The position numbers and the translations under genes are program-made. From positions 1-64,000 of the IMG/VR virus record IMGVR_UViG_3300005336_000001: DNA of 64,000 nucleotides. One strand, 5' to 3'. Position 1 is the first letter of the stretch. Every line of letters starts with the position of its first letter. The notes under the pieces were generated by a model that saw only the letters and a list, made by a program, of their open reading frames with translations, did no database searches and had not been told where the DNA came from. Shown piece by piece: positions 1,580-54,742 of this stretch. The DNA is from a virus.

Positions 1580-1617
1580 TTGACTTTCTGCCAGAAGATC
1601 AACTATCTAAGTGATAG
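1580..1617 (+). promoter_or_regulatory. Possible sigma70-type promoter with small inverted repeat
   Basis: TTGACT at 1580-1585 is followed after 18 nt by TATCTA at 1604-1609. A 5-bp inverted repeat (CTATC at 1603-1607, GATAG at 1613-1617) overlaps the -10 region. It lies between the tRNA and the cold-shock gene. This is visual matching only. Confidence 0.3.
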
Positions 1618-1640: not shown

Positions 1641-1877
1641 ATGGCTGAAAGTGATTTCGTTACTGGCACCGTCAAGTGGTTCAATCCTGAAAAGGGATAC
1701 GGCTTCGTCGTCCATGACGGTAAAGATGTATTCTTGCATAGCAAGAGACTGAGGGAATCAGGCATCGTAGTTCCCAACACCACAAAGAATGGTGTTCTTG
1801 ATCCTGGTGATGCAATCAAATTCAGAATTGAGGATGGCCCCAAGGGAGTTTATGCCATAGAAATTTCTAAGGTGTGA
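1641..1877 (+). CDS. Cold-shock-domain protein (CspA family)
   Basis: This 78-residue protein is a single OB-fold cold-shock domain, a single-stranded RNA/DNA binder that melts RNA structure. The RNP1 motif is seen as K-G-Y-G-F-V (about residues 18-23) and RNP2 as V-F-L-H (about 30-33), preceded by the family-typical G-T-V-K-W-F-N start. The length is close to that of host Csp proteins, with a short loop expansion before N-G-V-L. An AGAGGG site precedes the ATG. In the phage it may act as an RNA chaperone or antiterminator for the late operon, which is inferred. Confidence 0.95.
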
Positions 1878-2981: not shown

Positions 2982-3602
2982 ATGTTCGATAAGATCAAGT
3001 TTGTTAAATTAGCTACAAGACCTGCTCCATATGTGTACAAGGCAGGAAAAAAGATAAGCCGCCCACATGGCTATAAGGTGGTTAGTCAGAAACAGTTGAA
3101 GGCCCTGCGTGCGGGAGCGGTTCCCGCTACAAAAGTTCTTAATCCCTATGGGAAGTTTGGTGACTGCCGCAGATCACGTTACCGGGCCACGTTTCATAAG
3201 CGTGAATTGAAACCAGCTTGGAGAGATCTGACAATGACACGTAAACGCCTTAAACTTCAGTCGAAACAAGCAATGGCTCTTGAAGCACACGAGCTTCAAC
3301 AGCTTGCTCGTGAGAATGCTACTGCTGCCATGCGTACCTTGATTGAGATTTCAAAGAACAAGCGTGCCCCTGAGGCTACTCGTATTGCAGCCTCATCCGT
3401 TATCCTTGACCGTGGCTACGGTAAGGCATCGCAAACCAGTTTCACAGCGAATGTAGGCAATGGCAAAACGAGCGATATCCCAGCCGAGCAGCTCGAAAAA
3501 CGAGTTGAACAGGCTCTCAAGCGAGTTGAAGAGCTTACTCGACGAACGCCAAAAGCGGAGCCGAGCAAAAAACGACCTGCTAACCTACGCATCCTTAATT
3601 AA
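2982..3602 (+). CDS. Putative terminase small subunit
   Basis: A 206-residue protein from ATG 2982; a TTG at 2970 is the alternative start. The N-terminal half is very basic. The helical segment around residues 105-150 (A-A-M-R-T-L-I-E-I, then A-P-E-A-T-R-I-A-A-S, then I-L-D-R-G-Y-G-K) is the pattern I know from phage small-terminase-like and DUF5681-like proteins, which recognise packaging sites and load DNA on the large subunit. Its position before the large terminase supports this. The last 143 nt overlap the large-terminase frame. Confidence 0.65.
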   Translation: MFDKIKFVKLATRPAPYVYKAGKKISRPHGYKVVSQKQLKALRAGAVPATKVLNPYGKFGDCRRSRYRATFHKRELKPAWRDLTMTRKRLKLQSKQAMALEAHELQQLARENATAAMRTLIEISKNKRAPEATRIAASSVILDRGYGKASQTSFTANVGNGKTSDIPAEQLEKRVEQALKRVEELTRRTPKAEPSKKRPANLRILN

Positions 3603-5127
3603 CATTCCATCAGGCCCCCTCCGCGAGGAGGGTGAGAATGAAGAGTTCAAGCCACGGAAGCATTTGTTCGGAGCGCACCACCTTCTGTGGCTTGACTGTC
3701 TTCAACAAGTTGAAGATGGAAAAATAAAAAGATTGATGGGGCTGCTGCCTCCGGGCAGTGGCAAATCTATTTATACGTCAGTGGTGTTCCCCACCCACAT
3801 TATGGGGCGCTTTAGAAGCACTAATATCATCGTAGCAAGTTACGGCAGTGAACTTCCACGTAAGTTCGGCCGTCGTGCCCGTTCCATTACACAACAGCCA
3901 ATCTATAATCGCATTTTTGACACCGTATTGTCTGAGGACAGCAAAGCGGCTGATGAATGGGCGCTTGCAAATGGCAGTGAGTGGATGGCAGCCGGTATCC
4001 TGACTGGTATCACTGGTAACCGTGCTGATGGTGTTATTTGGGACGATTTGATTAAAGGCCGTGAACAGGCGGACTCACCTGTGGTCAGGCAAAAAACATG
4101 GGAGGCTTATGTTGACGATCTCCTAACCCGTAAGAAACCTCGAGCTTGGGAAATTGGTATTACCACACGCTGGCATGAAGACGATGTGGCTGGTCGGATC
4201 CTTCCCGAGAATTACAACGGTGAAAGTGGGCTCATACAGTGCCGAGATGGAAATGAATGGTTCGTCGTCTGCTTGCCAGCAGAGTGTGAACGTGATGACG
4301 ATATCCTCGGACGAAAGAAGGGTGATATTTTATGGCCTGAGTGGTTCACACCAGAAATGTTTGCCCCATTCAAGCGCAATCCTCGCACATGGTCATCGCT
4401 TTATCAGCAACGACCCGCCCCTGACAGTGGTGTGCTCTTCAAAGGTGAGTGGCTGAAAGTCTATGAGAAGGACCCACGCACTGGGATGCCTCAAGGCATG
4501 GAGCCCGGTGACCTTAACGTCTATGGAGCTAGTGATTATGCGGTTACTGACGGTCGTGAGAATTATACCGTGCATATTGTCATCGGTCTCGATAGCAAAA
4601 ACAATATGTATGTGTTGGATTTGTACAGAGAACAGGTGACTTCCGACAAGTGGGTGGAAAGTTTTATTGACCTCTGCAAGAAATGGAAGCCATTAGGTTG
4701 GGCTGAAGAAGCCGGTCAGATCAATGCTGGTGTTGGTCCCTTCCTTGTTAAGCGTATGCGTGAGCGCAATTGCTATGTTGCTCGCAAGCAGTTTCCATCC
4801 ACCAAATCAAAAGCCATGCGTGCTCAGAGTATCATCGGTCGTATGGCTTTGAATGGCCTTTACTGTCCGTTCGGTGCTGATTGGTTTGCTGAATTCCGAC
4901 GTGAACTGCTTCTGTTTGATGCTGGCCGTTACGATGACCAAGTAGACGCTTTGGGCTTAATTGGACAAGTGCTGGACAAAATGATCCCGGCTGATGCATC
5001 GTCTGCCGACCGTGGTGAGCCTAAGGTGTTCAATACACATCCTGACCAATGCACGGTTACTCTTGAAGATTTGTTTGAAGCCCGCGAACAACGTGGCACC
5101 AAAATAGGTAATTTGAGGATTCACTGA
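3460..5127 (+). CDS. terL: Terminase large subunit
   Basis: A 555-residue packaging ATPase and headful/cohesive-end nuclease that docks on the portal. The Walker A is seen as P-P-G-S-G-K-S (about residues 97-103) and Walker B as V-I-W-D-D (about 192-196). The RNase H-like nuclease carries acidic residues in G-A-S-D-Y (D359), W-A-E-E (E416) and Y-D-D-Q-V-D-A-L (about 491-498). The start at 3460 makes a 143-nt overlap with the small subunit. No later Met precedes the ATPase core, and the sequence before it matches the usual N-terminal terminase pattern, so at least part of the overlap is real. Confidence 0.93.
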   Translation: MAKRAISQPSSSKNELNRLSSELKSLLDERQKRSRAKNDLLTYASLINIPSGPLREEGENEEFKPRKHLFGAHHLLWLDCLQQVEDGKIKRLMGLLPPGSGKSIYTSVVFPTHIMGRFRSTNIIVASYGSELPRKFGRRARSITQQPIYNRIFDTVLSEDSKAADEWALANGSEWMAAGILTGITGNRADGVIWDDLIKGREQADSPVVRQKTWEAYVDDLLTRKKPRAWEIGITTRWHEDDVAGRILPENYNGESGLIQCRDGNEWFVVCLPAECERDDDILGRKKGDILWPEWFTPEMFAPFKRNPRTWSSLYQQRPAPDSGVLFKGEWLKVYEKDPRTGMPQGMEPGDLNVYGASDYAVTDGRENYTVHIVIGLDSKNNMYVLDLYREQVTSDKWVESFIDLCKKWKPLGWAEEAGQINAGVGPFLVKRMRERNCYVARKQFPSTKSKAMRAQSIIGRMALNGLYCPFGADWFAEFRRELLLFDAGRYDDQVDALGLIGQVLDKMIPADASSADRGEPKVFNTHPDQCTVTLEDLFEAREQRGTKIGNLRIH

Positions 5128-5128
5128 C

Positions 5129-5314
5129 ATGAGCACACAAGGTCTTGTAATTGTTTGGGGTTCGGTAGTCTCAATTGTTTTGGCGATTATTGTTGGTGCG
5201 TTTTTCAAAGCGACACCATGGGGCGGTGCATTGATGGTAACTGGCTTCCTTGGGCTGGTTGGATGGGTGTGTTTCATTATTTGGCTTGTCAATGCTATGA
5301 ATACTGACATCTGA
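5129..5314 (+). CDS. Small membrane protein, two TM segments
   Basis: A 61-residue protein starting one base after the terminase stop. It has two hydrophobic helices, about residues 5-25 and 33-54, separated by a short K-A-T-P-W-G-G turn. No family is recognised. Its place between terminase and portal suggests co-expression with packaging, but the role is unknown. Confidence 0.65.
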   Translation: MSTQGLVIVWGSVVSIVLAIIVGAFFKATPWGGALMVTGFLGLVGWVCFIIWLVNAMNTDI

Positions 5315-5324
5315 AGGAACCAAG

Positions 5325-7940
5325 ATGGCCGAAGTTGAACTTGACCCATTGGCTGGCCCTCAGGGTGGCAAGGAGTCAATCCGTCTTGCTTCCTTCTGGA
5401 ATGATCAAATTGAAAAAATGGGTAAGGACAAAGGCTTTGTCCAATTCATCAAACGTGGTCAAAAGATTGAAGCCCGCTATCGTGACGAGCGCAATAAGTC
5501 TGATGAAGATATGCGCCGCAAATACAATGCACTTTGGTCAAACGTTGAAATCCTGAAACCTGCTGTCTTTGGAAAAACTCCTCTTCCTTTGGCTGAGCGT
5601 AAGTTCGGTGACAAAGATCCTATTGCGCGTGGTGCCGCTCAAATACTTGAGCGTGCCCTTCGCAATGAAATTGAAATCTGTAATTTCAATGAAGCTTTGA
5701 CACAAGCGGTCAGCGATTACTTACTGCCGGGACGTGGCACTGTGTGGGTTCGTTATGAGCCTGAATTTAGCACGGGTATTTCTCTCGGTACTGAAGACAG
5801 TATCGACATGGAAGACAGTGAAGGGCCGTTAGAGCCGGGTCTTGATGATGAAATTGATGAACAGGAGGATCCTGCTGAGACCAAGCTTGAAGAAACAAAC
5901 AGTCAGGTTGTTCGTGAGTCCACCCCTATTGACTATATTCATTGGGAGGATTTCCTCGTTTTCCCAACAAATGCTCGCACGTGGGCTGAGGTTGTGGCCG
6001 TAGGTAAGCGTGTCTATCTGACGTATGAGCAAATGAAAGAGCGTTTTGGCAGGGAGATTGCCAAAGCAATACCTCTTGAAAAGGACGAGAGACAGAAAAA
6101 CAAGTTTGAGAACTCAAACCCTGAGAACGAAGTCAAAGGTCAAGTGTTTGAAATCTGGAACAAAGAGGATCGTAAAGTTTATTGGGTGGCAGAGTCATAT
6201 GACTTCCTGCTCGATCGGAAGGATGACCCGCTTCATCTTGAAGGATTTTTCCCAACACCACGTCCTCTAATTGCGAACCAAACTACTGGCACGCTTATCC
6301 CCGTGGCTGATTACATTCAGTATCAGGATCAAGCCACTCAAATTGACGAGCTGAGCCAACGCATTGCCATGCTTACCCGCGCTTGTAAGGTAGCGGGCGT
6401 CTATGCTGCGAGTGCCAAGGGTATCCAGCGACTTTTGAATGAGTCTGTTGAAAACGAACTCATCCCAGTTGATGACTGGGCTGCTTTTGCTGAGAAGGGT
6501 GGCATTGCTGGACAAGTGTCGTTCCTGCCTCTTAAGGAAATCATCGGCGTTTTGAACGAATTGATGATGCTTAAGCAAAAGCAAATTGAAGAAATGGATC
6601 GTCTTACTGGCATCAACGACCTTATGCGGGGCACAACCGATGCTCGTGAAACATTGGGCGGGCAACGTCTCAAATCCAACTATACTGGCACGCGCCTTTC
6701 AGCACGTCAGAATGAAGTTGCGCGATTTGCGAGAGATACTGTTCGTATTATGGCTGACATTATGGCTCAGCATTTTTCTCCTCAGTCTCTTGTTGAAGCT
6801 TCTGGTGCAATGTTTGAGGAAGGTCTTGGGATAGACCTTGAGAGCGTTCAGGCACAGCAGGCAGCAATCTCTTCTGTGCCACCACAGACCCCGCCTATGT
6901 CGGGCAGTGCAAGTCCGATAATGGGTGGACCGCCCGGTGCACCTCCTGCGGCTCCCACACCGGCCCCGATGGGGGGTGCACCGGCACCAATGCCTGTGGG
7001 TGGGCCTCCTCGTCTACCTATGCCCCCTCCTGCTCCCATGGGTGGCAACGTTGTTCCGTTCCAACCACGCCCCGGAGCTATGCCCGGTGGCGGTGCCCCC
7101 GGCATGCCTGTCACAGCCCCGCCTGTCGCGCCGGGTCTGCCTATGCCTTTACCCCCTGATCCCATGCAAATCGCGCTGGGTGAGGCTGTAAAGCGCATTG
7201 ACGCAGCCATTGGGCTGCTCCGCAATGAACGCTTGCGCGGCTTCAGGGTGGATATTGAGGTCGATTCCACGATTTTCAGCGATGCGGCTCAAGAAAAGGG
7301 TGATCGCACTGAATTTATCTCAGAAGTTACAAAATATCTTCAAACTTCTATGGCTATGTCAGCACAAGTTCCAGAAATTACTCCACTTTTGGGCAAATTA
7401 TTGCAATTTGGTGTTCGTGGCTTCCGTGTTGGCCGCGACCTTGAGTCCACCATTGAAGAATTCTGTGATCAGGCGGTAAAAATTGCGAAACAGAAGCAAG
7501 CAGCGGCAGCCGCTCAACCAAATCCTGAACAAATCAAAGCGCAGGCTCAGGCTGTGCAAGCACAGGCTACCTCGCAGGCAGCAACTGTGCGCGCTCAAGC
7601 AGATATCCAGAAGTCTAACAACGATATTCAGACTTCACAGCAAGATGCTGCCTCTCAACAGCAACAGGCACAGGCTGAGGTAGCTCGTCAAGCGCTTGAG
7701 ATGCAGGGTGAGCAACAGAATAGCCAAGCTGACATGATGATGAAGCAAATGGAAGTCAGAATGCGTCAAATGGAACTTGAACTGGAGAAAATGCGCCTTG
7801 AGTCTGAGAACAAACAGATGGAATCTGATCAACGTATTGCCAAGTCTGATGAAAAGATTGCACAGACACAAGCAAAGGCAGCAGTGCAAGCTGCAAAAGT
7901 GAAACCAACTAATCCATCGAGTATGGACGGAGCAGCATAA
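5325..7940 (+). CDS. Portal protein with Pro/Gly/Met-rich insert and Gln-rich coiled-coil tail
   Basis: An 871-residue portal (head-tail connector) of podovirus type, longer than the roughly 536 residues of T7 or 725 of P22. The N-terminal 500 residues show the usual portal pattern, including D-L-M-R-G-T-T-D-A-R-E-T-L-G and S-A-R-Q-N-E-V-A-R-F-A-R-D. An acidic loop lies near residues 155-195. Residues about 520-610 are an extremely Pro/Gly/Met-rich linker, and about 710-870 are a Gln/Ala/Glu-rich predicted coiled coil. It follows terL closely (10 nt after the small membrane gene), and its ATG has an AAGGAACC-like site upstream. The extended tail may form a barrel as in P22, which is inferred. 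Confidence 0.88.
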   Translation: MAEVELDPLAGPQGGKESIRLASFWNDQIEKMGKDKGFVQFIKRGQKIEARYRDERNKSDEDMRRKYNALWSNVEILKPAVFGKTPLPLAERKFGDKDPIARGAAQILERALRNEIEICNFNEALTQAVSDYLLPGRGTVWVRYEPEFSTGISLGTEDSIDMEDSEGPLEPGLDDEIDEQEDPAETKLEETNSQVVRESTPIDYIHWEDFLVFPTNARTWAEVVAVGKRVYLTYEQMKERFGREIAKAIPLEKDERQKNKFENSNPENEVKGQVFEIWNKEDRKVYWVAESYDFLLDRKDDPLHLEGFFPTPRPLIANQTTGTLIPVADYIQYQDQATQIDELSQRIAMLTRACKVAGVYAASAKGIQRLLNESVENELIPVDDWAAFAEKGGIAGQVSFLPLKEIIGVLNELMMLKQKQIEEMDRLTGINDLMRGTTDARETLGGQRLKSNYTGTRLSARQNEVARFARDTVRIMADIMAQHFSPQSLVEASGAMFEEGLGIDLESVQAQQAAISSVPPQTPPMSGSASPIMGGPPGAPPAAPTPAPMGGAPAPMPVGGPPRLPMPPPAPMGGNVVPFQPRPGAMPGGGAPGMPVTAPPVAPGLPMPLPPDPMQIALGEAVKRIDAAIGLLRNERLRGFRVDIEVDSTIFSDAAQEKGDRTEFISEVTKYLQTSMAMSAQVPEITPLLGKLLQFGVRGFRVGRDLESTIEEFCDQAVKIAKQKQAAAAAQPNPEQIKAQAQAVQAQATSQAATVRAQADIQKSNNDIQTSQQDAASQQQQAQAEVARQALEMQGEQQNSQADMMMKQMEVRMRQMELELEKMRLESENKQMESDQRIAKSDEKIAQTQAKAAVQAAKVKPTNPSSMDGAA

Positions 7941-17043: not shown

Positions 17044-18025
17044 CAATTCGATCATCAATGCCCTGAAAGGTGTGGACCCAGCGGATGCAATGCCCTTTGG
17101 GGCTGCAAACACGCCCGAAGGTTCTCCAACTATGTTTGGGAACATGCTCAGTGGTTTAATGAGCATGCCTAAGCACTTGATTGATGCTGCCAAGACATAT
17201 GATCCACAAGACCCTCATGGGTCCATTGATCGGCTGATCCCTGCTTCCACTGAGACAGCGATGTCTTTGGCTGGTGTGGGCGCTCCTGCGGCAGAAGTAG
17301 GCGCGGCAGGTATCTTTGGTGGCAAGCTTGCCAAGACAGCAGATATGAAAGCACTCATCGAAGCCAATGACATGTTTAAGGGCTCAAAGCCCATGTCACA
17401 GATTTATGGTGATACTGGTTGGTTTAAATCTCCAACCGATATGAAGTGGCGTTTTGAAATCCCTGATGACAGATCACGAATGATCGGCCATGGTCTAGAT
17501 TATTCTAAAGAAGGAAATTTTGTAAGAGGCCCTGCTGGTGTGATACTGGATCATCCTGAGTTATACAAAGCATACCCACAGCTTGCAAAAGATGACATGT
17601 ATAATTCAGTTTTTCACAATGCTCCTAACGGTGTTGGACGTGGATCATACGACCCAGTAAATGGAGTGGCTGAAATTGAAGCTGGAAATTTAGATAATGC
17701 ACGTAATGTCGCGTTGCATGAAATGCAACATGGTGTTCAAACACTTGAGAATTTTGCACCGGGTGGAAATCCAAGACGGATAGAATACCTTCAAAGATAC
17801 GCGCAAAGTAAACTTCCATTAAATGAACTTAAGAGTGATCCAAACGATGTGTATGCACGTCTTGGTGGTGAAGTAGAATCTAGAAATGTTCAAACACGTA
17901 TGGATATGACACCTGCGCACCGCCGTTTGGTTTCTCCATGGGAGACTCAAGACACACGTTATTCTGATCAGCTTGCAATGGATCCACGTACTGAGCTAAT
18001 CAGAGCTTTGAGGAATTCACGGTGA
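17036..18025 (+). CDS. Metallopeptidase-like (LPD23-type) virion-module protein
   Basis: A 329-residue protein. Residues about 226-245 read A-L-H-E-M-Q-H-G-V-Q-T-L-E, followed by F-A-P-G-G-N and later L-G-G-E-V-E-S-R-N-V-Q-x-R. This is the signature I associate with large polyvalent protein-associated domain 23, and HEMQH has the zincin HExxH form with the later E as a possible third ligand. The N-terminal 100 residues are helical and Gly/Ala-rich. It may act on peptidoglycan or proteins during DNA entry or assembly, which is inferred. Confidence 0.65.
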   Translation: MADNSIINALKGVDPADAMPFGAANTPEGSPTMFGNMLSGLMSMPKHLIDAAKTYDPQDPHGSIDRLIPASTETAMSLAGVGAPAAEVGAAGIFGGKLAKTADMKALIEANDMFKGSKPMSQIYGDTGWFKSPTDMKWRFEIPDDRSRMIGHGLDYSKEGNFVRGPAGVILDHPELYKAYPQLAKDDMYNSVFHNAPNGVGRGSYDPVNGVAEIEAGNLDNARNVALHEMQHGVQTLENFAPGGNPRRIEYLQRYAQSKLPLNELKSDPNDVYARLGGEVESRNVQTRMDMTPAHRRLVSPWETQDTRYSDQLAMDPRTELIRALRNSR

Positions 18026-19686
18026 GAAAAGTCAAATCACTAGATAAGGTTCCTACGCCAGCGCCGGACGTCATAACCAAGGTTGTGCCGGTACCTACTG
18101 ATGGTTGGGACGCTATTTCGCCTTTGGCGTCCATGGACCCAAAACGTGCACCTATTCTCAATAACTGGATTCCACGACCCGGCTGGGTTGAATTACGCAA
18201 GGGTTATTTCCCTTGGGTACTTCTTGATGAAATAGTCCCAGTGGAAACTATCATGGTGCGTCGTGCTGAGGGTGGCGAACAAATGTTTGTTGCTGCTGGC
18301 AACACCATTTATGATGCTTCCACGTCAGCGGCTCCCACTGTTGCTGTTACTGGATTAAACTCTGCCCGTTGGCAATATGCCAATTTCACCCCAGCCCTCG
18401 GCACCACAGTCATCCAAATTGTCAATGGAATTGACACGTTGAGGATGTATGACGGCATCACGTGGACGACCCCAACTATCACGGGTTTGCCCGGTGGCCG
18501 CACTACTGCATCCATTACCAATATCCATGTTCAAAAGCGTAGGTTCTGGTACGTCTTGGGTGACGGCTCTGGTGGTGGCTCTACCGTAGCCGCTTTCATG
18601 CCTACGGATGCAATCATGGGAGCTATTGATGGCACCCTTGATCTTGGTGCAAACTGGAGCAAAGGTGGCTATCTTGTTGCTATTGCCGATTGGACATTGG
18701 ATGGTGGCAATGGCCCATCCGACTACATGGTTTTCATTTCATCCAGAGGCCAAGTCACCATCTTCAGTGGTGTAGACCCAACTGATGCTACCAACTGGAT
18801 TTTGGCTGGCACGTTTGATCTATCTCCACCAATTAGCCTTCGTTGTGCTACCAAGATTGGTTCTGACGTTGGCCTTATTACACAACAAGGTGTCATTCCA
18901 CTTTCACAAGCCCTTCCCTATGAGGCTGGTGCTGAACGCAGTGTGGCGATCACTGCTCGCATTCAAAATGCGATGGCACAGGCGGCGATCGTCGGTCTGG
19001 ATTTGTTTGGTTGGCAATTGATCAGTTTCGCACCTGAAACTGTTGCCATCTTGAATGTGCCTCAAGTTGAGAACAAAACTCAAGTTCAATACGTGATGAA
19101 TGTTCTTACTGGCGCGTGGGCACAGTTCACTGGCTGGAACGCTAATTGTTTTGAAGTCTACAATAATGAATTGTTCTTTGGCGGCAATTCAGGAGAAATA
19201 AACAGAGCGTTTGTGGGGAGCAGTGATTTTTCAACCCCCATCCTTGCTGACATGCAATGTGCCTACAATTACTTTGATGCACCGGGACGTTTGAAGCGTA
19301 TGACGGCCGTCCAGCCTTTCATCACGGCTGGTGAGACAATCACACCTTTCATTTCAGTAGATGTGGATTTCAAAATCCAAGAGTTGAATGCCCCTATTCA
19401 AATTTTGAATGGTGGTGCGTTGTGGGATACCGCAATTTGGGATACGTCAGTTTGGTTTGGTTCCATTATTCAAACTACAGATTGGCTAAGTGCTCAAGCA
19501 CTGGGTCACGCATTGGCAGTCCACATGACCGTCAACGTTGCTAGTATCTCAGCAGATGGAACACAAGCTCTTTTTGACTTCTCACTCTTTGATGATGCGG
19601 TTTTTGACTCTGGATTTGATCAAAATGCATCTATCCTGCAAGTGAATGCTTTTAACACAATACTAGAAATGGGGGGGTTCATTTAG
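18022..19686 (+). CDS. Tail nozzle-like structural protein (P22 gp10-like by role)
   Basis: A 554-residue beta-rich protein starting at GTG that overlaps the previous stop (GTGA). The start G-W-D-A-I-S-P-L-A-S-M-D-P-K-R-A-P-I-L-N-N-W-I-P-R is typical of a large family of podophage tail proteins, followed by repeated beta-propeller-like units. By position after the adaptor it is probably the nozzle/packaged-DNA-stabilising protein. Named by position and remembered pattern only. Confidence 0.65.
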   Translation: MRKVKSLDKVPTPAPDVITKVVPVPTDGWDAISPLASMDPKRAPILNNWIPRPGWVELRKGYFPWVLLDEIVPVETIMVRRAEGGEQMFVAAGNTIYDASTSAAPTVAVTGLNSARWQYANFTPALGTTVIQIVNGIDTLRMYDGITWTTPTITGLPGGRTTASITNIHVQKRRFWYVLGDGSGGGSTVAAFMPTDAIMGAIDGTLDLGANWSKGGYLVAIADWTLDGGNGPSDYMVFISSRGQVTIFSGVDPTDATNWILAGTFDLSPPISLRCATKIGSDVGLITQQGVIPLSQALPYEAGAERSVAITARIQNAMAQAAIVGLDLFGWQLISFAPETVAILNVPQVENKTQVQYVMNVLTGAWAQFTGWNANCFEVYNNELFFGGNSGEINRAFVGSSDFSTPILADMQCAYNYFDAPGRLKRMTAVQPFITAGETITPFISVDVDFKIQELNAPIQILNGGALWDTAIWDTSVWFGSIIQTTDWLSAQALGHALAVHMTVNVASISADGTQALFDFSLFDDAVFDSGFDQNASILQVNAFNTILEMGGFI

Positions 19687-20130
19687 ATGTCTAAAGGTCT
19701 TTTGTTGGATGCTGACGCATTAGTGGCTGGTTGGGCTTTTCAAACTCACAACAAGGTTCCAATTCATGTGGATCGGGCATTAGGAATCATCGATAACAAT
19801 GTAATTGTCGGTGCCGCACTGTTTTCATCCTACAACGGTGTGAACGCTGATCTATCCTACTACGGCAAAGGCACCGTCACTGTTGGAATTATCAGGGCAC
19901 TTGTGAGGATAGGACTTTATGAGTTGCGCCTGTCAAGATGTACGGCTATTGTCCCTAAACGTCCAAGTTATCTTCTAAAGAAGCTTCCCAAGCTTGGCTT
20001 CAGATACGAAGGCGTTCAGCGTAGATATTACGGTCCCACAGATTCCGCACGTCACGTAGGGTGCCGTTTTGTTTTGTTCAGAGAAGACATGGAAAAGCTT
20101 CTATCTGAACGTCACAAGAAAGTTGCATAA
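19687..20130 (+). CDS. GNAT-fold-like phage protein
   Basis: A 147-residue protein beginning at the base after the previous stop. The segment N-A-D-L-S-Y-Y-G-K-G-T-V-T-V-G-I-I-R-A-L, then a Lys/Arg strand, then L-P-K-L-G-F-R-Y-E-G, follows the acetyltransferase-like layout known for a small protein in many podophage tail modules. A clear acetyl-CoA R/Q-x-x-G-x-G/A loop is not evident, so catalysis is doubtful and a structural role is possible. Confidence 0.6.
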   Translation: MSKGLLLDADALVAGWAFQTHNKVPIHVDRALGIIDNNVIVGAALFSSYNGVNADLSYYGKGTVTVGIIRALVRIGLYELRLSRCTAIVPKRPSYLLKKLPKLGFRYEGVQRRYYGPTDSARHVGCRFVLFREDMEKLLSERHKKVA

Positions 20131-35860: not shown

Positions 35861-36166
35861 TTATTTGTTACGTGCCAAGTAAAGTTCACAAAAGAGCGCG
35901 TCTCTTGTTTCTTTGGGCTCAGCAGATAGCCTAGACAAGATCTCCAAGTACGGGCTGCCCCATATCTTTTGAGCAATATAATGATCAAAGATAAGGTAAT
36001 CCGCACTTGGTATTTCTTGTGGAGCTTGGCTCCCATTTTGGGTGAAAATCAGATGGTGCCCAGTAACAGCCACATCTACGTTTGGAAACGCTTCACGGAT
36101 GACAGCACAAAAAACTTCTGTGTTGTCAGTATTCCGTTTGTTTTCTGTTTCCCACAAACGAGCCAT
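35861..36166 (-). CDS. Hypothetical protein
   Basis: A 101-residue protein from ATG 36166, which overlaps the stop of the GcrA-like gene (TAATG); the longer open frame to 36214 lies inside that gene. It has a mixed alpha/beta sequence with V-D-V-A-V-T-G-H-H-L-I-F and Y-L-I-F-D-H-Y-I-A-Q-K-I-W-G. Coupled to gcrA; function unknown. Confidence 0.65.
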   Translation of the reverse strand: MARLWETENKRNTDNTEVFCAVIREAFPNVDVAVTGHHLIFTQNGSQAPQEIPSADYLIFDHYIAQKIWGSPYLEILSRLSAEPKETRDALFCELYLARNK

Positions 36167-36702
36167 TATCTGTTTATGTAAGTTCGTACAGCCAGCAGCG
36201 TGTGTGTCTCGCAATATGGTTTATCAACCAAACGACGGCATCCACAAAATCGGAAATCGGATTGCTTTGGATCTCCCATCGGCCACTTGCACATGGTGGG
36301 CTGGAGTTCAGCAAACGTGACTGCCGTATCGCTCTCAATAAGTTTCAACCTTACTCGTTCCTTCTTTTTAACTAATACCAGTCTAGCTGGTCGTGGCATC
36401 AATCCTCTGGCTATCAATGCGGTATTGGCGCGAAGGTTTTTGTGAGACTTGAAAATGTTTCTGCTAATGACTTTCTCACCAGCCGGTTTTAACAACCCAG
36501 CTTTTCGTGCCCTATCTAATTTTCCTGCTATTGAGCCCCTTGAGCGGCCTACGTCTTCAGCGATTTTGCCCATTGAATGACCATCATTAAAGAGGTTGAT
36601 TACGACAGTGATCTCTTCAGAAGTCCATGCTTTGCCAATTCCGCGCCAGTTCAACTTAGTTGATTCTGCTGTCGGCTTCAATTGTGATGCTGCTTCTTCC
36701 AT
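36166..36702 (-). CDS. gcrA: GcrA-family cell-cycle transcription regulator
   Basis: A 178-residue protein. Residues about 26-70 are the DNA-binding helical part (W-T-S-E-E-I-T-V-V-I-N-L-F-N-D-G-H-S-M-G, then I-A-E-D-V-G-R-S-R-G-S-I-A-G-K). The C-terminal domain has the hallmark C-K-W-P-M-G-D-P, F-C-G-C, and K-P-Y-C-x-x-H. In Caulobacter, GcrA binds sigma70-RNA polymerase and activates promoters, many with CcrM-methylated GANTC. The ATG has AAGGAAAG upstream; the gene overlaps the SbcC-like gene by 47 bp. Here it may turn host RNA polymerase toward phage or cell-cycle promoters, which is inferred. Confidence 0.92.
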   Translation of the reverse strand: MEEAASQLKPTAESTKLNWRGIGKAWTSEEITVVINLFNDGHSMGKIAEDVGRSRGSIAGKLDRARKAGLLKPAGEKVISRNIFKSHKNLRANTALIARGLMPRPARLVLVKKKERVRLKLIESDTAVTFAELQPTMCKWPMGDPKQSDFRFCGCRRLVDKPYCETHTLLAVRTYINR

Positions 36703-38512
36703 TTTTGTCTTTCCTTGCTGTGATTATTCCTTCAAATTCACCAAAGTTGGCGATTGAAGTATGGTCAACAATCCAAATACGTTTCCCTTCCTCCATGGCA
36801 CGCTCATGCAACGTGTTTGCTAAATCCATCATCCCTTCAGTTGAAAGGTGCGTGGATGGTTCATCATAGAACTCTATCTTGTTGTTGAGACCTGCACCCT
36901 GCATGATTAAGTTGGCTAGACCAAGATCACCGGCCAATTGCAGGCGTTGTGTTTCACCCCCGGACCATGTTTCCCATTTGACCGGAGCAATATTGCCGGG
37001 TGACTTGACAAAAACCACAAAACCTTTGGTGACACCACCAGATTTATTTTCCCGCTCAATATCAAATGTTATTTGCCAGTCTGGCATTCCAAGTTGAGCC
37101 AGCACATTATTAACTTCCAGCTCTAGTGTTCTGAAAGCCTGCTCAATGATGAACAGGCGGACACGTTTGAATCCTTTCACCCAAAAACTGATGGCTGCGT
37201 ATTTTGCTTCGTAGCCCTCAAGGACGTTTCTGTCTTCGGTTAAACCCTCAGTCAAATCTTTAACCAAAAGTTTCTTACTATTTAGCATTTCCTTGTGAGG
37301 ATTACGTTCAGCGGCAATCAGGTCTATCTGAGTATTGAGTGCGGCAAGCTGGTCATTTGCTCTTAATTCATTAACTTCTTGCTTGTTCAGTTCTTTTTCT
37401 AATTTAAGGATTTCATCCTGCCATTCAAAAGCTAATGTTTCTTGACGGCTGAGCCCATTCTTTGCTTTGATCATTTCCTTAGTCAGAGTTTGTAAAGTGT
37501 CATCTACAATTGCAATTTGTACATCTAGTTCAAGTCGCATGCGTTCATTGATATGCTTGACGCTCTCAACGTGTTTGTGACTGATTTCTTGTAAACAGAG
37601 TGGGCATCCCCCCACTTTTAATTTTTCAGTACGGATGGCCTTTTTGTCAGCCAGTATCTCAGTACGTTTTTTGGATACGGCTGCAATCTTGTCCAAGAAT
37701 GAATTTCGTGTGCTGGTCCAATTTTTCATCTCAAAATCACAAGCTTTCAATTCAGCTTTTGCTTTTACGATATTCCCTTTTATTTTTGAAATCTTAGGAG
37801 CGATTATGTTATCTATGTCATTTGCAATTCTTGTGTATTGAGTGTTTATCTTCTTGATACGTTCTTTTTTGTCAATGTCGTAATTGTCCGTTGATATTGT
37901 CAGTGTTTTAATATCTTCCTTTAACACAGTCAAACGACCTTCATCATGGTTAATGCTGGCTGTGCATTCAGTTATTTTAGAAGAAAATTTGTCAGCCTGT
38001 TTCCCCGCCGCCTTGCTCAACTCAAGCCAGTAGTCCAGATTTTGAATATCTGAGAACAGATTGAGTTTTGCCGTAGGCTGCATGGCAAAAAATGATTCTG
38101 AGAACTGTGGGTTCAGGACTGAGTATTTGAAAGACTCATAGTTGAGCCTCAGATATTTCTGAAGTTCAACCTGATCCACGGGTTTGTCATCAAGGAACAG
38201 CCCATTGGGCTTTTGAGTGCGTTTAATGAGGCTGCGGCGGTCACCTACAGTGAGTTCTATGGTGACGGTAGCGGAGGTAGCCCCCCAAGACACCACTTCA
38301 GCGGCCTTTAGACCGCGTGTGGTGCGGCCAAACAAAACCCACGAAATGGCGTCAAGGAAGGTTGATTTGCCTGCCCCATTGGCCCCGAGTGCTGGGGACA
38401 TGATGTTCCTACCTGACAGAAAATACAGTCCGTGCTTGGTTGGGAAGTCAAACTCATGGGTACCAAGGTATGACCTGAAATTGGTCAGGATGATGCTGTG
38501 AAGGTCGAACAT
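36656..38512 (-). CDS. SbcC/Rad50-like recombination nuclease subunit (T4 gp46-like)
   Basis: A 618-residue SMC-type ATPase working with the SbcD-like nuclease in end processing for recombination-dependent replication. It has Walker A G-A-N-G-A-G-K-S (about 43-50), a central coiled coil with the zinc-hook C-P-L-C near residue 305, the ABC signature W-S-G-G-E-T-Q-R-L near 518, and the Walker B-type F-Y-D-E-P-S-T-H-L near 555. The length is close to T4 gp46 and shorter than bacterial SbcC. Confidence 0.92.
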   Translation of the reverse strand: MFDLHSIILTNFRSYLGTHEFDFPTKHGLYFLSGRNIMSPALGANGAGKSTFLDAISWVLFGRTTRGLKAAEVVSWGATSATVTIELTVGDRRSLIKRTQKPNGLFLDDKPVDQVELQKYLRLNYESFKYSVLNPQFSESFFAMQPTAKLNLFSDIQNLDYWLELSKAAGKQADKFSSKITECTASINHDEGRLTVLKEDIKTLTISTDNYDIDKKERIKKINTQYTRIANDIDNIIAPKISKIKGNIVKAKAELKACDFEMKNWTSTRNSFLDKIAAVSKKRTEILADKKAIRTEKLKVGGCPLCLQEISHKHVESVKHINERMRLELDVQIAIVDDTLQTLTKEMIKAKNGLSRQETLAFEWQDEILKLEKELNKQEVNELRANDQLAALNTQIDLIAAERNPHKEMLNSKKLLVKDLTEGLTEDRNVLEGYEAKYAAISFWVKGFKRVRLFIIEQAFRTLELEVNNVLAQLGMPDWQITFDIERENKSGGVTKGFVVFVKSPGNIAPVKWETWSGGETQRLQLAGDLGLANLIMQGAGLNNKIEFYDEPSTHLSTEGMMDLANTLHERAMEEGKRIWIVDHTSIANFGEFEGIITARKDKNGRSSITIEADSRIN

Positions 38513-38832
38513 TATTCCGGGTCTGAGCCTCTGGTGATTGCTTTGACTCTATTCATCCACAAATTGACGCAATGCGGGCACAAATCCACATCTATGATTT
38601 CAATGGGGGGTTTTGAAGGTGCCGCAAGATTTTGCGCAACACTAACCCCACCAATCCCACCACCACCACCGTAATTCCCAGCCGCATTCTGCTGTGCATG
38701 AATGTGCATTTGCACTGCTTGTTGCATCCTTTGCGTCTCATATGAGAGTTGTTGTTTCACACCACCAAACGACAGTACTGTTACGTCACGTGCTACATTT
38801 CCACAGTGGTCACAGAATGTTTTTGTTACCAT
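38512..38832 (-). CDS. Zinc-ribbon protein between sbcD-like and sbcC-like genes
   Basis: A 106-residue protein from ATG 38832, preceded by AAAGGGA with good spacing (the frame is open to 38955 inside the SbcD-like gene). C-D-H-C near the N-terminus and C-P-H-C near residue 85 can form a zinc site, separated by a Gln/His/Gly-rich linker. Placed between two partner nuclease genes, it may bind that complex or DNA; inferred. Confidence 0.65.
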   Translation of the reverse strand: MVTKTFCDHCGNVARDVTVLSFGGVKQQLSYETQRMQQAVQMHIHAQQNAAGNYGGGGGIGGVSVAQNLAAPSKPPIEIIDVDLCPHCVNLWMNRVKAITRGSDPE

Positions 38833-39820
38833 TGATGATTCCCTTTCCTGCATCTCTAATATTTCGTGATAGATTTTCCGCATTGCTGAACTGATCAAAG
38901 ACGGCAGCGGGATCATTTCCAGTATTGCTTGCCATACTTCGTTTTTTAACTTCATTTGTTTTCATCTCCATCTTAGCTCCATAGACGTCAAGTTTGAGTT
39001 CCTTGCAGGCGTCAAGCACACGTTGCCTGATTTGTTTCCATTCAACGGCTTCTTCACGTGTGACTTCTATTACCAATTTTACCTGATCGCCTTCCATCAA
39101 ATGTTTATTGTTAAGAAGGTTGTCAGCGTCACGTATTTTGAGTGACCATTTCCGTGGCGCATCCATCCATGGGTATGCTTCAGTGCCATTTTGACTCACA
39201 TGGATGCATCTAGGCTCAAAATCATCACCGAAACGCACCTGATAGGGGCACCCTATATAAGTCACCAGACCTTGGGTCTGGGGGCGGTGCACGTCCCCGG
39301 CGTATACCCCTAGCTCTGGCTTGGCAGACTCAATCAGTGAGGCCGACAGGCCCGATAAACGTACCCCTGACTCAGCTATAGCCCCTTCAAAGGTTTGATG
39401 CACAAGAAAGCTATCAGGATCATCACCAAGACAGAGGTGAACAGCAGCGTCAAATTCATCCTGCGTCCTGTAGTGTGGGATAATTGCCATCCGTTTTTCC
39501 GCCTTAATGACGGTCGGTTTCGTGACAAAATGTAATCCTTCTATGTGACTAAGAAACTTGAAGAATGGATTCTTGTTGTCCCTGTAGTCGTGATTGCCCA
39601 TGTCAATGTAGACGGGCGGTCTTAGCTGTGTGAGGCCCGTCACAATCTGGTTGACCAATGTGGCTGAATGCCTGTCCTTACTGTCAGTGATATCACCAGC
39701 CAAGAAAGTAGCGGCAACAGGATTCTTTTTCTGTTGCCGCTTAATCCAGTCGAAGATGTTGAACCTATACGCGTCCTGACCACGATCAGTTAAGTGCAGG
39801 TCCCCTACCAATAACCACAT
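38810..39820 (-). CDS. SbcD/Mre11-like nuclease subunit (T4 gp47-like)
   Basis: A 336-residue calcineurin-like phosphoesterase with metal-binding motifs in order: G-D-L-H-L-T (about 6-11), L-A-G-D-I-T-D (about 40-46), D-M-G-N-H-D (about 73-78) and later H-R-P-Q-T-Q-G. It forms the nuclease of the Mre11/Rad50-type complex with the gene downstream. Its length matches the T4 gp47 family. Confidence 0.9.
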   Translation of the reverse strand: MWLLVGDLHLTDRGQDAYRFNIFDWIKRQQKKNPVAATFLAGDITDSKDRHSATLVNQIVTGLTQLRPPVYIDMGNHDYRDNKNPFFKFLSHIEGLHFVTKPTVIKAEKRMAIIPHYRTQDEFDAAVHLCLGDDPDSFLVHQTFEGAIAESGVRLSGLSASLIESAKPELGVYAGDVHRPQTQGLVTYIGCPYQVRFGDDFEPRCIHVSQNGTEAYPWMDAPRKWSLKIRDADNLLNNKHLMEGDQVKLVIEVTREEAVEWKQIRQRVLDACKELKLDVYGAKMEMKTNEVKKRSMASNTGNDPAAVFDQFSNAENLSRNIRDAGKGIINGNKNIL

Positions 39821-39987
39821 TACTCTTTCCGTGCTTCATAGTGAGCCAGCCAAATAACCAAGAACAGCAACACTGGCACAATAAACAAGTGAACTACGAA
39901 ACTGGCGAAGGACGGTTGCGCCATGAAGCCAGTGGCACCCCACACAACGAGTGCAAGGTACACCGATGGTTTAGTGTGAAAGTTCAT
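39820..39987 (-). CDS. Small membrane protein
   Basis: A 55-residue protein from ATG 39987 (the open frame to 40092 overlaps the terC-like gene). It has two hydrophobic segments, about residues 8-22 and 25-46, ending in a charged tail (H-Y-E-A-R-K-E). It overlaps the stop of the TerC-like gene by 17 bp and may be functionally linked to it. Confidence 0.6.
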   Translation of the reverse strand: MNFHTKPSVYLALVVWGATGFMAQPSFASFVVHLFIVPVLLFLVIWLAHYEARKE

Positions 39988-40654
39988 GTGTTTTCCATTT
40001 TGACCAGAGGTAGGCGACACCAAGCACAAATCCAACGCCCTGTGCAGCCCAGATACGTGGATCAATCTCAAGTTGGGTGATAAAGCCCTCACTGGCGATC
40101 AACTCGCCGGCAAGCCAGCCTAGCAGCGCGGCCCCCGCCCAAATAAGGATGGGGAATTTGTTCAGGATCATGGTTATCAAGGTAGCCCCAGTAACCACTA
40201 GCGGGATACTGACAGCCAAACCAATGGCAAGAAGGAGGACGTTGCCTTGTGCAACAGCAGCCACCGCCACCATGTTATCCACACTCATGACAATATCAGC
40301 CAACACGATGATTCTGATTGCTGCAAAGAGTTTGTCAGAAGACTTTACGTCACTCTCACCATCATCAGGCAGACACATCTTGATGGCTACAAAGAGCAAT
40401 GCCAACCCGCCAGCAAGTTTGAGGTAAGGAAGTGTCATTAGTGTGGACACAACGCCTGTAGCGGCAATACGCAACAAGACAGCACTCAGGGCACCTAAGA
40501 TAATACCCCAAAAGCGTTGACGCTCAGGCAGGCCACGGCATGCCATAGCTATAACCAGTGCATTGTCACCAGACAATAGTGCATCTATCCAAATGACTTT
40601 GCCAATAGCCAGCCAAAAGGCTGGGTCGTGCAGTTCCATTTCTAACCACGGCAT
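39971..40654 (-). CDS. TerC-family integral membrane protein
   Basis: A 227-residue protein of the TerC/YjbE type with about seven membrane helices. The family's acidic intramembrane motifs are seen as W-I-D-A-L-L-S-G-D-N-A-L-V-I-A and I-V-L-A-D-I-V-M-S-V-D-N-M-V-A-V. Known members export manganese or act in tellurite/stress resistance and in metallating exported proteins. A TerB-like gene lies just upstream, separated by a structured leader. Function in a phage is inferred only. Confidence 0.9.
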   Translation of the reverse strand: MPWLEMELHDPAFWLAIGKVIWIDALLSGDNALVIAMACRGLPERQRFWGIILGALSAVLLRIAATGVVSTLMTLPYLKLAGGLALLFVAIKMCLPDDGESDVKSSDKLFAAIRIIVLADIVMSVDNMVAVAAVAQGNVLLLAIGLAVSIPLVVTGATLITMILNKFPILIWAGAALLGWLAGELIASEGFITQLEIDPRIWAAQGVGFVLGVAYLWSKWKTHELSH

Positions 40655-40742: not shown

Positions 40743-41204
40743 TTAGAAGTCAAACTTGGAAGGATCAACATTCAGGCGCTTTGCAATCTTTTCAAGCACC
40801 TTGGTCTCATCTTCACCAGCTTTGCCGTTGTGGTTTGACGAGGCCACGTCTACCGCAACAAGGTAGACGTCATCAGCCATTTGGCTCGCATTGGGCAGGC
40901 TGTTCACTGCATCAAGGTTCCGTGCAAGCTCTTGCTTGCCAGAAGCAGTGGTGGCATGCCCTAGTGCGTTGTTGAGGGTGCTTTCAATCTGTTGACGGGT
41001 GTACAGGCCCGACAACTGGGTGTGGCTGGTAAGCACTTCCATGGCCTTTTTCTTTTCAGCATCCTCACAGGTGCCGTCAGCATAGGCAATGAGGGCACAT
41101 GAAGCAGAGACTGCCTTCAGGAAGTCTTCAGTCTTGCCATACTCCTTGTTCAGTTCCTTCATGCCTGAGGCAAAGACGCTCTTAAACATAGACGAGATTG
41201 ACAT
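40743..41204 (-). CDS. TerB-like tellurite-resistance-family protein
   Basis: A 153-residue acidic helical protein. L-K-A-V-S-A-S-C-A-L-I-A-Y-A-D-G and G-K-A-G-E-D-E-T-K-V-L-E-K-I-A-K-R-L-N-V-D-P-S-K-F follow the TerB pattern (paired acidic EF-like helices that bind metals). TerB is a cytosolic partner of TerC in bacterial Ter stress systems, and the two genes are adjacent here. Assignment from remembered family pattern. Confidence 0.8.
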   Translation of the reverse strand: MSISSMFKSVFASGMKELNKEYGKTEDFLKAVSASCALIAYADGTCEDAEKKKAMEVLTSHTQLSGLYTRQQIESTLNNALGHATTASGKQELARNLDAVNSLPNASQMADDVYLVAVDVASSNHNGKAGEDETKVLEKIAKRLNVDPSKFDF

Positions 41205-51749: not shown

Positions 51750-52168
51750 TATAATTCTTTCATCCAAGCTCTGTGACGGGCTGCAAGTGTGATGCAGTTT
51801 TTCTTTTTGGCCTCTTCCCATGTTATCCCATATTTTTCAACCCACGGATTTAAAATTGCTTCAATTCCAGCTTTATAAAGTTTTCTCCTCCATGGAATTA
51901 GATATCCAAAAATGTTAAGATTCCTATAATATCTGTTTTCAATATAAAAATCCAAACCATACATACTGTTAGCCATCCAAATTTCCATATTTTCAGTTTT
52001 GTTTGCAAGACGAAATGGAAAATGACATCGCCAATTTCGTGGTCTGAATTTGAGGCTGACAAGCACCCTTGTCAGGTCGTAATTGAAGCGTTCTCGTTTA
52101 GCTTTCTGGCGTTCGAAAAATGAGTAGATTTTCGTGACGCGGCACGAGCTTGTGCCCCTTCCAAGCAT
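51749..52168 (-). CDS. Hypothetical protein, start uncertain
   Basis: The open frame codes 139 residues, but the first 24 codons overlap the methyltransferase gene. An in-frame GTG near residue 35 or the Met near residue 61 (M-E-I-W-M-A-N) could be the true start. Aromatic-rich (F-Y-I-E-N-R-Y-Y-R-N-L-N-I-F-G-Y). No family is recognised. Confidence 0.5.
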   Translation of the reverse strand: MLGRGTSSCRVTKIYSFFERQKAKRERFNYDLTRVLVSLKFRPRNWRCHFPFRLANKTENMEIWMANSMYGLDFYIENRYYRNLNIFGYLIPWRRKLYKAGIEAILNPWVEKYGITWEEAKKKNCITLAARHRAWMKEL

Positions 52169-52991
52169 TGCTTGCCCTCACTGCGGCTGACGCGAAGTTC
52201 TTAGATAGGATGATATTCTGCCAATAGATAAATCCAGCATCACGGAAATTCTCAACTGTGTCAGCCGGGAAATCAATTAGCTCTCCTTTCTTGTCTCTAA
52301 ATAAACCTACAATAATACATACAAAAGAGCCCGGCTTCATCCTATGCTTGTGAGCATGTGCACATAGATACATAGAGGCATTAAACTCAGCATAACTGCC
52401 AAGATTCGATATGTCATCCTGTTGGTCTGAGTAGACTTCCAAATCAAAATAGGGAGGGCAAGTAATGGCGCAATCAAACATAGCATCAACATCAAGATAA
52501 CGACCATCAGAATTAACATAGGTCGCTCCTTTCAATTTCAATTTCTTTAGTATGGCTTCATTTTCATCAATCTGCTCTTGACGGATTTCAAAGCCGACAT
52601 ATTCATGGCCCATAATACACGATACCAGCCCACGCGGTGGGCCACCAGCGAAAGCATCAAGAATCTTACTACCAATTGGACCTCCGTATCGCACAATGAT
52701 CATTTCCATCAGTGGTGCGGGGAATACTGAGTGAGTGCCTGTGTAAACCGAGTTATGGTCAGCCCTGAAGCTTTGATCGCGAGCGCCGGTGTGGCCTGTT
52801 TCACCCGTCAGCCTGCGCCAATCACGGACACGACGTTTGATTATCTCATCTACCTGCCAGATGGTAGTGGTGGTGCTGAACCAATCCTTGCCCTGTGAAG
52901 GCCGGACATATGCCTGCTGCGGGGTAATGAGCAGAGGCCTGCTGGTCTTGAGTGTTTTTCCAGATACCTTGTCTATTGTTTTAAACAGCAT
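52098..52991 (-). CDS. DNA methyltransferase (N4/N6 amino-type)
   Basis: A 297-residue protein. SAM motif I is D-A-F-A-G-G-P-P-R-G (about residues 109-118) and the catalytic motif IV is T-C-P-P-Y (about 170-174), in the order of alpha/gamma-type amino-methyltransferases. The G-Y/F-E-I-R segment after motif I binds the ribose. No restriction partner is seen nearby, so it is probably a solitary methylase for self-protection or regulation. Target sequence not readable. Confidence 0.8.
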   Translation of the reverse strand: MLFKTIDKVSGKTLKTSRPLLITPQQAYVRPSQGKDWFSTTTTIWQVDEIIKRRVRDWRRLTGETGHTGARDQSFRADHNSVYTGTHSVFPAPLMEMIIVRYGGPIGSKILDAFAGGPPRGLVSCIMGHEYVGFEIRQEQIDENEAILKKLKLKGATYVNSDGRYLDVDAMFDCAITCPPYFDLEVYSDQQDDISNLGSYAEFNASMYLCAHAHKHRMKPGSFVCIIVGLFRDKKGELIDFPADTVENFRDAGFIYWQNIILSKNFASAAVRASNAWKGHKLVPRHENLLIFRTPES

Positions 52992-53199
52992 ATTTCACCG
53001 TGTCATACCAGATGCCACTCTCAAACACTCTATTGAGAGCCATGGTATTGCCTATTAATTTTTTATATTCTTTAACTGAGGTAGGGATTAACCCTGCCTT
53101 TAATGCTCGTTTTCGGACTGTGGGCTTCACTTTGTGAAGTAACACATAGTTCCGGAAGGTGGGATAACCACCCTCCGGATATTCAATTATGATCTTCAC
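52981..53199 (-). CDS. Small hypothetical protein
   Basis: A 72-residue basic protein. R-N-Y-V-L-L-H-K-V-K-P-T-V-R-K-R-A-L-K-A-G-L-I-P looks like a short helix-turn-helix-type stretch. It overlaps the methyltransferase start (11 bp) and the vWA stop (4 bp). Function unknown. Confidence 0.6.
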   Translation of the reverse strand: MKIIIEYPEGGYPTFRNYVLLHKVKPTVRKRALKAGLIPTSVKEYKKLIGNTMALNRVFESGIWYDTVKYAV

Positions 53200-53816
53200 T
53201 TCTTGGCTTCAGCTTTTTCTTCATCACTGAAGGATACAGATTGTCCTGTGGCACCATAGACACCACGTTTGGAAGCCATGGCACTCATGGTGGCCCCCAT
53301 GCTACGCATCGAGGAATTCACGTGCATCCCCTTTGCTGCACCATAGCCAGTAGCTTGTGCAGCATTGTCGAAGTTTGCACCCAAGAAAATCACCTGCCAA
53401 TTCTTGGCACGCGCCCGGTCAAGGCGTTCCTTGATCTTGGCCACAGTGTATTCACTGGACGAGTTTTCCTGACCATCAGTCATGATGATGATGGCGACCT
53501 TATCGTATTGCTCACCGCCCGGTGCGCCCTTCTCAGCCAGATCAAGGAGCTTGCCGGTGGCATCATTCAAAGGTGTTCCACCACGCGGTGTTGCATCCTT
53601 GTCAGTGACTTCATGCCACGTAGAAGGCGTGATACGATCACGGATGATCTTGAATGGCTCATTGGAGTCAAACACAGCCAAGGTCACGCCGGTATCGACC
53701 TTGTCATCAGCCAACTTCTTGACGTAGCCGTTGATGGCACCAAGTGCTTCCTTCCACATTGTCCCTTCCATGGAGCCAGAGCGGTCAAGTAGGATAAAAT
53801 CATGTTGCATTCTCAT
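53196..53816 (-). CDS. von Willebrand factor A domain protein
   Basis: A 206-residue single vWA domain. The MIDAS metal site is seen as D-R-S-G-S (residues 11-15), the threonine in G-G-T-P-L-N-D near residue 80, and T-D-G near residue 113. Such domains mediate metal-dependent protein contacts; TerY-type vWA proteins accompany TerB/TerC systems, both of which this phage carries elsewhere. The closest family cannot be settled by eye. Confidence 0.85.
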   Translation of the reverse strand: MRMQHDFILLDRSGSMEGTMWKEALGAINGYVKKLADDKVDTGVTLAVFDSNEPFKIIRDRITPSTWHEVTDKDATPRGGTPLNDATGKLLDLAEKGAPGGEQYDKVAIIIMTDGQENSSSEYTVAKIKERLDRARAKNWQVIFLGANFDNAAQATGYGAAKGMHVNSSMRSMGATMSAMASKRGVYGATGQSVSFSDEEKAEAKK

Positions 53817-54671: not shown

Positions 54672-54742
54672 TGGAGCCGGATGTGGGAGTTGAACCCACA
54701 TCCTATGGATTTAGAGTTCCTAGGACCCAACCCGGACCCAGC
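54672..54742 (-). tRNA. tRNA-like element, degenerate (possible CUA anticodon)
   Basis: On the minus strand, 71 nt with a full 7-bp acceptor (GCTGGGT with ATCCGGC), a good T arm (GTGGG-TTCAACT-CCCAC) and encoded CCA. The D arm is poor. The anticodon region forms TCCTAGGA with TCC-A-TAGGA (one bulge) around loop ACTCTAAA, so placing U33 conventionally gives CUA, which would read amber. The odd stem makes a working tRNA uncertain. It lies directly against the stop codon of the 54743-55513 gene. Confidence 0.5.

Follow-up and report, generated by a model that had tools for sequence, protein, structure and literature searches.

A GcrA-family protein of 178 amino acids is encoded by the phage whose DNA was analysed here (the window, 64,000 nucleotides, is positions 1 to 64,000 of the IMG/VR record IMGVR_UViG_3300005336_000001). 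The half of this protein that would bind sigma70 is well preserved, whereas the recognition segment of the half that reads DNA is more diverged than that of every bacterial GcrA in the sample. Among sigma70 cofactors that read DNA methylation GcrA is the standard example, and its phage copies, known since phiCbK (2012), have been assumed to imitate the host protein. We propose, with a probability of roughly 0.55, that the phage protein is a sigma70 cofactor of the GcrA family with altered DNA specificity, which redirects the host polymerase.

The gcrA locus

The gene and its surroundings, all on the minus strand, are as follows.

35861-36166 (-): 101-aa protein, the start of which overlaps the gcrA stop (TAATG)
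36166-36702 (-): GcrA-family protein, 178 aa
36169-36291 (-): C-terminal sigma70-interacting domain (SID), aa 138-178, signature C-W-P-G-D-P / F-C-G / Y-C-H intact
36484-36630 (-): N-terminal helix-turn-helix (HTH), aa 25-73, the diverged DNA-reading domain (DBD)
36656-38512 (-): SbcC-like recombination ATPase (AAA_23, 5e-10), syntenic in relatives
38810-39820 (-): SbcD-like phosphoesterase (Metallophos, 1e-6), syntenic in relatives

A GcrA-type protein had been claimed at this position in a sequence-only reading, and the claim is confirmed as the right observation of a kind that was already known. The open reading frame is intact from its ATG (36702) to its TAA (36166), with a ribosome-binding-like AAGGA stretch nine bases 5' of the ATG, and the protein carries all three signatures (C138-K-W-P-M-G-D-P145, F152-C-G-C155 and P162-Y-C-E-T-H167). 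The Pfam family GcrA (PF07750) matches aa 25-174 of the full protein with 81.2 bits (1.4e-22) against a curated cut-off of 26.9 bits, which is far beyond chance. Its sole sequence relatives in the PDB are entries for Caulobacter crescentus GcrA (7ye1/7ye2 at 4.7e-13), and no second GcrA is present in the complete record of 93,560 bases (93.6 kb; G000). With C. crescentus GcrA (7ye1, 7ye2, 5yix, 5yiv) the phage protein shares the layout of an HTH, a disordered linker and the SID. It differs in having an N-terminal extension of 23 aa and in being encoded by a virus, one that lacks a CcrM partner. Among the control genomes, the archaeon Sulfolobus acidocaldarius also scored above the cut-off in the PF07750 search.

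The minus-strand replication/recombination block comprises the genes for DNA polymerase, clamp loader, SSB, UvsX, RusA, SbcD and SbcC, and runs head-on into the structural and lysis genes of the plus strand. The 3' end of the SbcC-like gene and the start of gcrA share 47 bases, and the gcrA stop in turn overlaps the next start. By this arrangement gcrA seems to lie among the last genes of the block, and the layout suggests that it may be co-transcribed with it. The longer call of the downstream reading frame (35861-36166) had no match in Pfam or PHROG. The replication block also holds a set of the tellurite-resistance type, made up of a TerC family membrane protein (39971-40654, minus strand), TerB (40743-41204, minus strand) and a VWA-domain protein (53196-53816, minus strand).

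Host and RNA polymerase

The nearest relative of the capsid protein is found in Bradyrhizobium phage ppBjS10J-1 (54%), followed by Mx8-like phages (47%), and the portal protein agrees with this. Viral contigs with the same capsid protein mostly show 70-100% identity; among 398 genomes some match is present in 15, and three Hyphomicrobiales genomes contain capsid relatives at 57-58%. An alphaproteobacterial host is likely on the basis of these similarities, rather than shown, because phages of Myxococcus and Stenotrophomonas share the capsid family.

There is no RNA polymerase among the five reading frames of at least 600 aa in the record, which encode the portal, a tail/lysin protein, the DNA polymerase, the SbcC-like ATPase and, with 914 aa, a member of PHROG 2295. 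This bears out the earlier remark that no phage RNA polymerase was visible. Taken together with the GcrA family membership and the intact SID, it makes use of the host polymerase by the phage plausible.

Several other features of the genome were recorded. ARAGORN predicts a tRNA of 71 bases whose anticodon, CTA, is of the suppressor type (54672-54742, minus strand); Rfam did not confirm it, and by eye the T arm and acceptor stem are good and the anticodon arm is poor. Recoding of TAG, which such an anticodon could suggest, was rejected: TAG ends several large genes and readthrough would add little coding length. At 18022-20130 on the plus strand a reading frame of 554 aa ends in TAG and is followed immediately by an in-frame ATG and a reading frame of 147 aa; these are probably two adjacent genes, the alternative being a readthrough extension. 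Several six-base palindromes are strongly avoided over the whole record (window, L002 and L003; CCCGGG, CAGCTG and CTGCAG are each found 0 times, with 22, 19 and 15.5 expected), which suggests restriction systems in the host.

The sigma70-interacting domain

The SID is intact both in sequence and in predicted fold. On its own, the segment aa 124-178 scores 52.6 bits against PF07750, and all SID positions conserved in at least 99% of 80 bacterial GcrAs are kept in the phage protein up to A150. The AlphaFold model has a confident C-terminal domain, joined to the HTH by a linker of low confidence. A Foldseek search with this model gave GcrA entries as its first three matches, among them 5yix_B, the GcrA domain bound to domain 2 of sigma70. 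The predicted SID superimposes on 5yix_B with a TM-score of 0.85 (by target length) and an rmsd of 0.7 over 44 columns; since AlphaFold may have been trained on that structure, we take the match as support and not as proof. The claim of a GcrA-type sigma70 module thus holds for the signature residues, the profile score and the fold, and binding of the phage protein to sigma70 would be expected from this similarity.

The DNA-reading domain

The N-terminal half is a different matter. Alone, the phage DBD reaches 23.8 bits against PF07750, so that it falls below the cut-off and is not recognised by itself as a GcrA-type DBD, whereas the DBD of Caulobacter scores 96.5 bits. The beginning of the profile can still be aligned with it, so that the low score is a matter of divergence and not of absence. 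A three-helix HTH is predicted with confidence by AlphaFold (helices 28-39, 44-51 and 55-67). Compared with the Caulobacter-type reference L012, the phage recognition segment is 27% identical and the SID 49%, and the recognition helix conserved in GcrA orthologues, VTRNAVIGKVHRLGL, is not found in the phage protein. In bacterial numbering N34 has become G, I37 has become A, H41 has become D and residue 31 is missing, as is also the case in direct comparison with C. crescentus GcrA. Nearly all sampled bacterial GcrAs keep these lost residues; R33, G38, K39 and R42 are retained in the phage.

This pattern is not that of the bacterial family. The recognition segments of 155 bacterial GcrAs are 47-100% identical to L012, and the phage value lies below all of them. 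In 112 of 115 bacterial GcrAs the DBD is closer to L012 than the SID is, and the recognition segment averages 97-99%. Because this set had been drawn from the best matches, partly by means of peptide patterns that included the recognition helix, 40 lower-scoring alphaproteobacterial matches were fetched as a control; the DBD was the better-kept domain in 36 of these, and the lowest value for the recognition segment was 47%. The phage GcrAs are mixed, with the DBD above the SID in 9 of 32 rows, a tally in which the window sequence stands twice (as WIN and L001) beside a few near-duplicate phages, and which is biased to kept SIDs since the viral scan used a SID pattern. When the N-terminal half is compared with phage protein families, the best match is a D5-like HTH regulator. 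The Caulobacter GcrA domain also matches this D5-like family, less strongly than it does its own GcrA-type family; the phage match therefore shows an HTH and leaves a domain swap unproven. From these comparisons it appears that the DNA-reading half probably no longer reads the methylated GANTC sites of the host; with R33, G38, K39 and R42 kept, some reading of GANTC could survive.

A kept SID beside a diverged DBD would also be found in a decoy or poison of host GcrA, one that occupies domain 2 of sigma70 and shuts GcrA-dependent cell-cycle promoters, its own reading of DNA being secondary or absent. Most known phage repressors of sigma do act by binding sigma, though at domain 4 (PMC7403470). 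A pure decoy, however, would need no HTH, and here the HTH fold is predicted confidently and its basic residues are kept. We regard such a function as unlikely, and prefer a cofactor with altered DNA specificity.

GANTC sites and promoters

The distribution of GANTC was analysed in the phage genome, as distinct from host promoters as targets. The record contains 147 GANTC sites, where 363 are expected from base composition and 210 from a maximal-order Markov model, and GANTC is the rarest of 24 pentanucleotides of the same class (O/E 0.40). Between genes there are 13 sites (16 of the 147 on the first gene calls; the calls are mechanical and were hand-corrected at a few places), with an O/E of 0.44 and a density ratio of 1.08, that is, without enrichment. 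In alphaproteobacteria that carry CcrM, GANTC is likewise avoided over the genome as a whole, but is enriched more than 1.5-fold in intergenic DNA (PMC3973325). The avoidance in the phage therefore fits a CcrM-bearing host, but the intergenic enrichment expected if GcrA acted on the phage's own promoters is missing. This is in line with a survey of alphaproteobacterial phages, in which GcrA-binding sites showed no positional bias (PMC9437464).

Two features outside the gcrA locus bear on this question.

1580-1608 (+): sigma70-like promoter TTGACT-N17-CTATCT, without GANTC, conserved in four related phages
52098-52991 (-): solitary DNA methyltransferase, not of the CcrM type (PF01555, 2.6e-11), motif order reversed relative to CcrM

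The promoter precedes a cold-shock gene and the other plus-strand genes, on the late side of the genome. It is present as a single copy, with no further copies of TTGACT-N17-CTATCT in the record, and no motif that could represent an altered DNA target of GcrA was found. The cold-shock-domain protein itself (1641-1877, plus strand) is the first plus-strand gene. Two other candidates were discarded: in the divergent region, a TGATTCG (position 1423) is not kept in three relatives and was dropped as a GANTC promoter site, and a conserved block at about 3232-3459, before terL, is coding and very likely the small terminase gene rather than a DNA element.

The methyltransferase mentioned in the sequence-only reading is indeed encoded, but it is not of the CcrM type. 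In the enzyme (METHYLTRANSFERASE, 52991-52098) the SAM-binding motif DAFAGG comes before the catalytic motif TCPPY, whereas in the beta-class order of CcrM DPPY precedes the SAM motif; only the SAM-binding part of the phage enzyme aligns, and it does so to the opposite end of CcrM. The C-terminal RAMA domain of CcrM (PF18755) is absent from the record, and was detected in the Caulobacter genome used as positive control. Phage relatives of the enzyme are annotated partly as ParB-domain proteins and partly as adenine methyltransferases. Judged by its motifs, it is not a CcrM counterpart.

The dependence on GANTC methylation that had been proposed for the phage protein, and against which absent or randomly placed sites were to count, is not upheld: GANTC is avoided and shows no intergenic excess, the conserved late-side promoter contains none, the methyltransferase is not CcrM-like, and residues kept by almost every bacterial GcrA in the sample are gone from the recognition segment. 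Another reading is that the protein mimics host GcrA: it would read methylated GANTC in the promoters of the host and push the cell to a replication-friendly state, with phage promoters not among its targets. Such a role was proposed when GcrA homologues were described in phiCbK-like phages (PMC3556154), it would suit the copy of Agrobacterium phage Atu_ph08, which is about 90% identical to a bacterial protein (PMC6630229), and the avoidance of GANTC by the present phage fits a CcrM-bearing host. The weak conservation of the recognition segment and the failure of the DBD to reach the GcrA cut-off argue against it, and we think it quite improbable here.

Under the preferred reading, of a cofactor with altered specificity, gcrA would be expressed together with the last genes of the replication/recombination block. 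The C-terminal domain would dock on the primary sigma factor of the host, at domain 2, as its conserved residues and predicted fold suggest, and the HTH, given the divergence of its recognition helix, would steer the holoenzyme to promoters outside the methylated YGAKTCK set of the host. In this way the protein may move host RNA polymerase to phage promoters or to selected host promoters, presumably near the time at which the phage turns from replication to late genes. Sigma70 binding, the new DNA targets, the timing and the role in infection are all inferred.

GcrA in related phages

Whereas a scan of viral contigs with the single sequence gave no close GcrA relatives, an alignment query gave 23 GcrA loci. 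GcrA is present in 12 of 30 related IMG/VR records in all (11 by family, 10 by protein); the family search left 19 of the 30 records, which are mostly partial, without a match. In L278, L279 and L280, as in the present phage, gcrA comes after sbcC and shares its strand; in L276, L277 and L281 the gene is on the opposite strand, again at the hinge between early and late genes. As the proteins of L278 and L279 are identical and those of L276 and L277 nearly so, the six records amount to about four independent cases. The GcrAs of the relatives are 24-41% identical to the window protein and the flanking proteins 38-82%; where GcrA reaches 41%, RusA, SbcD and UvsX are at 68-82%. The more distant relatives L273-L277 retain a recognition helix of bacterial type, which counts against the preferred reading. 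The inverted genes of L276 (7149-7646, minus strand), L277 (7887-8384, plus strand) and L281 (7622-8269, plus strand) have an altered SID, e.g. CHWPLWND for CKWPxGDP.

If gcrA were a host gene that had been captured and is now drifting almost or wholly without function, it would be expected to evolve faster than its neighbours, as it does, and to be missing from many relatives. On the other hand, the reading frame and all SID signature residues are intact, the gene is kept at the same locus in deeply diverged relatives, in either orientation, and the near-identical pair L276/L277 has a dN/dS of about 0.16 (dN 0.011, dS 0.064, from only 11 base differences). Drift is therefore very unlikely; that the gene stays at one locus while either half of the protein may change fast points to a function under shifting selection. 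In a short tree (147 columns), which is too weak to date the acquisition, the window protein groups with L278 and L280, far from the bacterial GcrAs. Avoidance of GANTC was rejected as a marker of gcrA, since the O/E ranges of GcrA-positive relatives (0.22-0.66) and of those in which GcrA was not found (0.36-0.98) overlap and stem from partial contigs; a tie between the two is only a lead.

Two further observations were made among the phages compared. In L285 the large terminase gene (3915-6380) falls into two matching pieces about 0.8 kb apart, as if split by an intron or an inserted gene. A GcrA-family gene is also present in two phages listed with Synechococcus as host (L006, 3885-4496; L010, 114-725), a record that may deserve a check.

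Comparison with known systems

The phiCbK-like Caulobacter phages also encode a PF07750 protein, about 29% identical over 86% of the protein, in which the recognition helix is altered as well. They belong to an unrelated lineage (prolate siphophages of 205-280 kb), and their gcrA has another gene neighbourhood. The GcrA of Atu_ph08, also phage-encoded, is by its high identity a recent capture, unlike the window protein, which is far from the bacterial ones. The small phage proteins AsiA and Gp39 bind host sigma and redirect the polymerase, the role proposed here, but they act on domain 4 of sigma (PMC7403470), whereas GcrA acts on domain 2. In the part of the literature consulted, no statement was found that GcrAs of phages retain the part that binds sigma while losing the part that reads DNA.

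More tentatively, and as something less likely than not, these phage proteins could form a family that has split from DNA methylation, in which the activator module for sigma70 domain 2 is kept and the HTH re-specified, giving a methylation-independent, promoter-selecting cofactor by which the RNA polymerase of the host is turned to phage genes. If it is true that the SID has been kept while other DNA is read, phage GcrAs would be natural domain experiments that separate activation through sigma domain 2 from the reading of methylation, and would represent a takeover route distinct from that of the AsiA-type factors.
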